From assembly GCA_023957245.1 (NCBI GenBank), contig JAMLHJ010000006.1, forward strand, positions 62,001 through 126,000: a stretch of 64,000 bases of DNA. The letters are read 5' to 3'. The notes under the pieces were generated by a model. That model saw nothing but the letters and a program-made list of their open reading frames with translations. It was not told where the DNA came from and ran no database searches. Origin of the DNA: Chitinophagales bacterium (lineage in GTDB: Bacteria; Bacteroidota; Bacteroidia; Chitinophagales; JADIYW01). Shown in pieces: positions 44,794 to 44,980 of the stretch. Both the position numbers and the translations under genes were made by a program. Numbering within the stretch: the stretch's first letter is position 1; every line of letters begins with the position of its first letter.

Positions 44794-44825
44794 AAAAAAA
44801 GCCCTTCTGATGAAAGAAGGGCTTT
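44794..44825 (-). terminator. intrinsic terminator between the RNA leader and the peroxiredoxin gene
   Basis: A perfect 11-bp stem (44798-44808 with 44815-44825) and 6-nt loop, followed by seven T on the minus strand. It also could end the E1 transcript. Confidence 0.88.
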
Positions 44826-44946
44826 ATATCGCTATGGCTAAATAGTATCAAATATATACACAATTTCCCTTCCTGTATGGTTTCATACAACAACAGCAAT
44901 TGTTCATTGATATTTTCAAACTATTTAGCATTGATTTAAAATTGTA
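44794..44946 (-). ncRNA. candidate structured RNA or attenuator leader upstream of peroxiredoxin
   Basis: Minus-strand RNA of about 150 nt from a start near 44946 to the terminator. A 10-bp outer stem pairs 44920-44929 with 44837-44846 and is extended by ATCAA/TTGAT after an 8-nt bulge. Inside are hairpins AACAA/TTGTT (44889-44904) and GTATG/CATAC (44875-44888). GAAGGG at 44867-44872 is complementary to CCCTTC in the terminator's 5' arm, which would allow an antiterminator. No known RNA family is recognised. Confidence 0.6.
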
Positions 44947-44949
44947 CCT

Positions 44950-44980
44950 CAAATATATTACTGTGATTTAAAAAATCAAA
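44950..44980 (-). promoter_or_regulatory. consensus promoter of the RNA leader
   Basis: TTTG (44977-44980) and TATATTTG (44950-44957) are separated by exactly 19 nt on the minus strand, a perfect match to the Bacteroidota -33/-7 consensus. Confidence 0.8.

Follow-up and report, generated by a model that had tools for sequence, protein, structure and literature searches.

A cysteine-codon leader and a putative transcription attenuator upstream of a peroxiredoxin/cysH operon, with counterparts at sulfur genes across an order of Bacteroidota

Introduction

In mycobacteria and their relatives, cys operons have been predicted to be preceded by leader peptides with runs of cysteine codons but no accompanying terminator (Seliverstov 2005, PMC1262725). 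Mycobacterial poly-Cys uORFs were also seen by ribosome profiling (Shell 2015, PMC4633059) and, as cited in PMC13236596, were studied as cysteine-responsive attenuators by Canestrari 2020. In Rhodobacterales, uORFC-8-2 upstream of cysS has two Cys codons and is followed by a terminator, and ribosome-mediated attenuation has been proposed for it (PMC8632094). In the literature searched, this was previously the only case in which a Cys-codon leader is combined with an intrinsic terminator. For Flavobacterium psychrophilum, a transcriptome study reported leader-peptide attenuation upstream of amino-acid operons, which are not named in its main text (PMC9723704). An earlier description of a Cys leader in Bacteroidota was not found in the literature searched, which covered the main text of that study.

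Here, we analyzed a window of 64,000 nucleotides from a Chitinophagales bacterium (GCA_023957245.1, contig JAMLHJ010000006.1), in which an earlier note had described an attenuator-like leader ahead of a 1-Cys-type peroxiredoxin (Prx) gene. Our results support the attenuator-like character of this leader; the probable sensor, a short ORF with four Cys codons, had been overlooked.

Results

A Cys-run ORF lies within a structured leader

The promoter, the structured leader and the terminator with seven T residues that had been noted before were all found in place (Table 1). TTTG-N19-TATATTTG-type promoters match four times in the window versus 4.4 expected by chance, and the -7 box TATATTTG is kept at the equivalent place in G001, a genome of the same genus. 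Terminators like the 11-bp one occur once in the window versus 0.1 expected from shuffles. The leader folds with a z-score of -4.67 (0/200 shuffles equal its stability), and its part 5' of the terminator forms a single long bulged hairpin in the minimum-energy fold rather than the "multi-branched" structure of the earlier note. Between the terminator and the Prx ATG (44731), no TTTG/TAnnTTTG promoter was found, in agreement with the earlier note, which saw no second promoter there; the sole sigma70-type match in this stretch (9/12) overlaps the start codon and is not of the phylum's promoter type.

Table 1 Features of the leader and the downstream genes in the window
Feature	Position	Strand	Sequence	Basis or remark
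Promoter, Bacteroidota type	44980-44950	minus	TTTG-N19-TATATTTG	Pattern match; -7 box conserved in G001
Predicted transcription start site	near 44945	minus		Inferred from promoter position
Leader-peptide ORF, 27 codons	44931-44848	minus	MLNSLKISMNNCCCCMKPYRKGNCVYI, then stop	Alternative in-frame ATG at 44907
Outer 10-bp stem, 5' strand	44929-44920	minus	GCUAAAUAGU	Minimum-energy fold; overlaps start of leader ORF
Four consecutive Cys codons, proposed sensor	44898-44887	minus	TGC TGT TGT TGT	
Segment 2, antiterminator strand	44874-44867	minus	AGGAAGGG	Contains GAAGGG
Outer 10-bp stem, 3' strand	44846-44837	minus	ACUAUUUAGC	Minimum-energy fold
Intrinsic terminator, 11-bp stem	44825-44798 (whole with U7: 44825-44794)	minus	AAAGCCCUUCU-UUCAUC-AGAAGGGCUUU	
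Segment 3, terminator 5' arm	44821-44814	minus	CCCUUCUU	Partner of segment 2
U7 tract of the terminator	44800-44794	minus		
1-Cys-type peroxiredoxin (Prx), first regulated gene	44731-44096	minus		Pfam AhpC-TSA and 1-cysPrx_C; NCBIfam PRK13189 over cut-off
Phosphoadenylyl-sulfate (PAPS) reductase CysH, likely second operon gene	43864-43190	minus		NCBIfam NF002537 over cut-off

The orthologous leader peptide in G001 reads MSNSLKISMYNCCCCMKIYRKE up to its stop codon; residues are conserved, and the codons for Ser, Leu and two of the Cys residues differ synonymously. Together with the Cys run, these synonymous changes indicate that the leader ORF is coding, and its translation is predicted. The layout is that of an attenuator: a promoter-proximal short ORF, predicted to be translated, carries a run of one regulatory codon, and an intrinsic terminator separates it from the first structural gene, whose ATG follows the end of the ORF after 116 nt. 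Conservation beyond the source strain, on which the earlier note had made its reading depend, extends in G001 to the peptide ORF, the -7 box and an intrinsic terminator (loop of 10 nt). The G001 locus is L002; the record L031 is Chitinophagales bacterium ACE_NR_BACT6, and the Prx is 97% identical to that of the window. By DNA similarity across the relatives, a full-length match to the leader was obtained in G001 only, the remaining matches being AT-rich or terminator noise. In G002, the third genome of this genus, Prx is preceded by two tandem Cys-run leaders (L221), which end in SCCCMCMMPSGI and CYCCCCCMTIQRHCRI.

A segment behind the Cys codons can pair with the terminator arm

The previously noted complementarity of GAAGGG (44872-44867) to CCCTTC in the terminator was confirmed. 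GAAGGG pairs with CCCUUC, and the extended helix AGGAAGGG/CCCUUCUU comprises 8 pairs (shuffle p = 0.015). Here, a segment 3' of the Cys codons complements the 5' arm of the terminator, and we consider this helix the putative antiterminator. GAAGGG begins 14 nt past the last Cys codon, and segment 2 lies 24 nt downstream of the first. When the RNA up to the terminator 5' arm was folded with a stalled ribosome, the antiterminator formed at about -12.6 kcal/mol. In the ribosome-free fold, segment 2 was held in an upstream hairpin (UUGUAUG/CAUACAG and flanks), and the terminator formed in the downstream RNA once a ribosome was placed at the stop codon. The complete terminator is more stable than the fold in which the antiterminator is imposed (-20.5 versus -15.6), so that the antiterminator could prevail only if it formed earlier.

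Some observations count against an attenuator that works in this way. At the window locus, the distance from segment 2 to the end of the leader stop codon is 19 nt, versus a median of 5 nt elsewhere; a terminating ribosome may thus not cover the segment, and the upstream hairpin would have to act. In G001, the antiterminator is also weaker, at -10.3 kcal/mol with about 6 pairs and an A-C mismatch. Only G001 aligns when the Prx leader is examined for covariation, and its weaker pairing comes without compensation.

The segments vary together between loci

In the 50 units described below, we then determined the longest complement that the terminator 5' arm finds in the 45 nt following the Cys run, and compared it with dinucleotide shuffles. 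Complementarity exceeded the shuffles at p < 0.05 in 32/50 loci (Wilcoxon 3e-13); the 18/50 loci that miss this level count against the model. In a swap control, each terminator arm fitted its own leader better than leaders taken from elsewhere (p = 4e-8, median percentile 0.90), which argues that both segments vary together between loci. The p-values of both tests treat related loci as independent and, given shared ancestry, overstate that independence. The median distance to the start of segment 2 is 14 nt from the last Cys codon and about 30 nt from the first. The end of the leader stop codon lies a median of 5 nt beyond segment 2, where a terminating ribosome would mask the segment. In stalled-ribosome folds, the antiterminator formed in 40/49 loci, which serves only as a consistency check since the segments were chosen for complementarity.

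Similar leaders precede sulfur genes across the order

The genome of the window (G000) contains further leaders of this type, as found by a pattern-based census that may miss leaders with few Cys codons. One, outside the window (G000:C20, about 185.5 kb), encodes MKAKFQSFRNILAACCCCCMNTNG with five Cys codons and precedes genes for a cysM-like PLP enzyme, a JAMM protein and a ThiF/MoeZ protein; its GGUGAGG is the full complement of CCUCACC in the terminator arm. Another, MKKNVNRQMCCSSIKDV with two Cys codons, lies before a Cys_Met_Meta_PP (metY-type) gene. The ATG of the cysM-associated leader is located only about 7 nt past a TATATTTG box (L157, about 970-1030), and the transcript from which this ORF would be translated may be nearly leaderless.

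A search with the cysM-like protein through 150 genomes of the order led to 30 loci that were read, and upstream sequence was sufficient in 28 of them. In 26/28, the cysM-like homologue is preceded by an ORF that starts with ATG and contains three or more consecutive Cys codons; in four of these (L168, L169, L170, L190) it is located further upstream, and in L168, L169 and L170 it lies ahead of a Prx-type gene that heads the operon. The remaining two (L186, L188) show CICCC after a GTG start, as read by eye. Scanning all fetched loci yielded 50 units consisting of a Cys-run ORF, a terminator and a downstream gene. Unit L095, which adjoins no recognised sulfur gene, was taken as chance; the other 49, for which presence of the terminator was a selection criterion of the scan, precede sulfur or cysteine genes.

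The genes downstream make or handle cysteine, cysH at the window locus and cysM, serine acetyltransferase, sulfite reductase and metY-type genes elsewhere. A unit's first gene is cysM-like, a peroxiredoxin or of the sulfite-reductase, serine-acetyltransferase or metY type, the serine-acetyltransferase type being assigned from sequence by eye (in L223, a cysteine synthase comes next). The units stem from families f1, f2, f5, f9, f11, f13, f19, f21 and f22 of the order and from G457, which belongs to another order. Tandem leaders, each with its own terminator and both ahead of a single operon, occur at L042, L198, L221, L228, L229, L232, L249 and L257-L260. Apart from the Cys run and the complementary segment, leader sequences vary freely between loci. 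In the leaders of L152 (G457), L042 and L221, Met and Cys runs are mixed, e.g. KMMMCCKMSMCVPICCCRK before a metY-type gene; such leaders possibly sense both sulfur amino acids.

Among the best 80 Prx homologues from public genomes, a terminator-type Cys-run leader was found only in L031 and L042. Nearly all Prx homologues thus lack it, which indicates that the leader follows cysteine and sulfur operons with Prx as one member, and not the peroxiredoxin class. In these 80 loci (983,330 strand-bases), at least four Cys codons plus a terminator were matched once, and never in reversed sequences; the finder is conservative and misses L031 with its 10-nt terminator loop. At L056 (about 1390-1510), where a metY-type gene lies upstream of Prx, an eight-Cys ORF precedes the metY-type gene. 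Behind this ORF comes an inverted repeat with no U-run, maybe a translational or Rho-dependent version. Across the order, the pattern NCCCCMK with one mismatch gave real leaders in G000, G001 and G022 (L119), most other matches being coding noise. Phylum-wide matches outside the order to TGYTGYTGY plus GGCTTTTT or to four Cys codons plus a T-run were likewise mostly coding noise, so that runs of at least four Cys codons with such spacing look concentrated in the window's order.

The downstream genes and sulfur metabolism

The gene order Prx-CysH is kept in G001, and the Prx operon probably continues into cysH. No PF01077 sulfite reductase was found in the genus, though CysH and a CysD-like protein are present. 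A cysH without a sulfite reductase counts against control of this gene by cysteine supply. A cysteate-synthase-like gene (CapA-like homologue) is located at G000:C4:980-1948, scoring below the curated cut-off, and sulfite in this genus may go to sulfonolipids rather than to cysteine. In other families, Prx heads cysM-JAMM-ThiF operons (L245, L259), which suggests a functional link between Prx and cysteine synthesis.

Discussion

The leader ORF, its Cys run, the competing helices, the terminator and their conservation, as observed here, make it very probable that the leader is a ribosome-mediated transcription attenuator sensing cysteine supply, a function that we infer from anatomy and comparison. 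RNA polymerase would start near 44945, and a ribosome would begin to translate the leader ORF. When charged tRNA-Cys, most likely the signal, is scarce, the ribosome would stall in the run of four Cys codons, leaving segment 2 (AGGAAGGG) free to pair with segment 3 (CCCUUCUU) once this is transcribed, and polymerase would read on into Prx and cysH. With plentiful Cys-tRNA, the ribosome would near the stop codon and segment 2 would be covered or recaptured by the upstream hairpin; with segment 2 unavailable, the 11-bp terminator would form and transcription would end at U7. Cysteine shortage in the cell probably switches the Prx/cysH operon on, and a peroxiredoxin would thereby be controlled, as is likely, by cysteine and not by peroxide.

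The earlier note had considered a redox- or ligand-sensing leader, that is, an RNA that binds a small molecule or senses peroxide and thereby picks terminator or antiterminator. Such a riboswitch would be compatible with the stable leader (z -4.67) and with a terminator before a peroxide-defence gene. However, the conserved part is coding sequence with a Cys run while the rest varies freely, and most Prx homologues lack the leader, whereas cysM-type operons carry it. The Rfam covariance-model search that the note had proposed reached no family (best 22-31 bits versus gathering thresholds of 49-60), all families staying well under threshold; matches to Phe_leader and Thr_leader, far below gathering scores, reflect mainly the terminator hairpin. 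With no sign in its favor and a Cys-run leader peptide as the likely sensor, we regard the riboswitch as highly improbable. The long bulged hairpin followed by a terminator also resembles the shape of 6S RNA, and a 6S-like sRNA was our first idea, dropped in view of the Cys ORF and of the Rfam search, which gave no 6S-type match. An independent sRNA, with Prx transcribed otherwise, had already been ranked as the weaker alternative, a ranking with which we agree: a short terminated RNA would arise whenever cysteine is plentiful, but the synonymous changes and the Cys run point to coding, Prx has no second promoter of the phylum's type, and the units are closely followed, on the same strand, by sulfur genes. 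We deem this explanation equally improbable.

The poly-Cys ORF could also work by translational coupling or Rho-dependent termination, with the intrinsic terminator as a side feature. Mycobacterial precedents without intrinsic terminators (PMC1262725) and the eight-Cys ORF at L056, which stands before a metY-type gene without a U-run terminator, are in line with this route. Nevertheless, nearly all Bacteroidota loci have a strong U-run terminator, most with a matched segment 2, and the 116 nt between the leader ORF and the Prx ATG make direct translational coupling unlikely. We thus consider this route very unlikely, and favor attenuation by a ribosome stalling at the Cys codons.

Taken further, poly-Cys attenuators, often in tandem, might constitute the main cysteine-sensing regulon of this Bacteroidota order, coordinating sulfate reduction, cysteine synthesis (cysM/JAMM/ThiF), homocysteine synthesis and a dedicated Prx via tRNA-Cys charging and not via a CysB-type regulator. 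We put this forward tentatively, as a reading that may well prove too broad. If it is true, tandem units would allow a two-step or steeper response, and the leaders that mix Cys and Met runs (L042, L152, L221) would respond to both sulfur amino acids. The proposed attenuator gives an explanation, open to testing, of cysteine sensing in these Bacteroidota, and poly-Cys leaders that mark sulfur-metabolism genes provide a simple signature for genome mining.

What is new here is a putative Cys-leader/terminator switch that is widespread in one order of Bacteroidota, including tandem arrangements. The actinobacterial poly-Cys uORFs are alike in that a short Cys-run ORF precedes cysteine and sulfur operons, and cysteine-responsive attenuation has been reported for them. 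They differ in phylum, genes and peptides, and they lack a conserved intrinsic terminator, with Rho or coupling being proposed, whereas the Bacteroidota units have a terminator, a strong one at the window locus, and usually an antiterminator segment. Like uORFC-8-2, the Bacteroidota units combine a uORF containing Cys codons with an intrinsic terminator behind it. That uORF, however, has two tandem Cys codons and precedes only cysS in alphaproteobacteria, whereas the Bacteroidota leaders mostly have 3-10 Cys codons, precede biosynthesis operons and frequently form tandem units; the window leader, with four Cys codons, precedes a Prx/cysH operon. To the classical trp, his, leu, thr and phe attenuators, the likeness lies in a leader peptide rich in the regulatory codon and in a 2:3 antiterminator that competes with a 3:4 terminator. 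Where those read Trp, His, Leu, Thr or Phe codons, the Bacteroidota leaders would read Cys.
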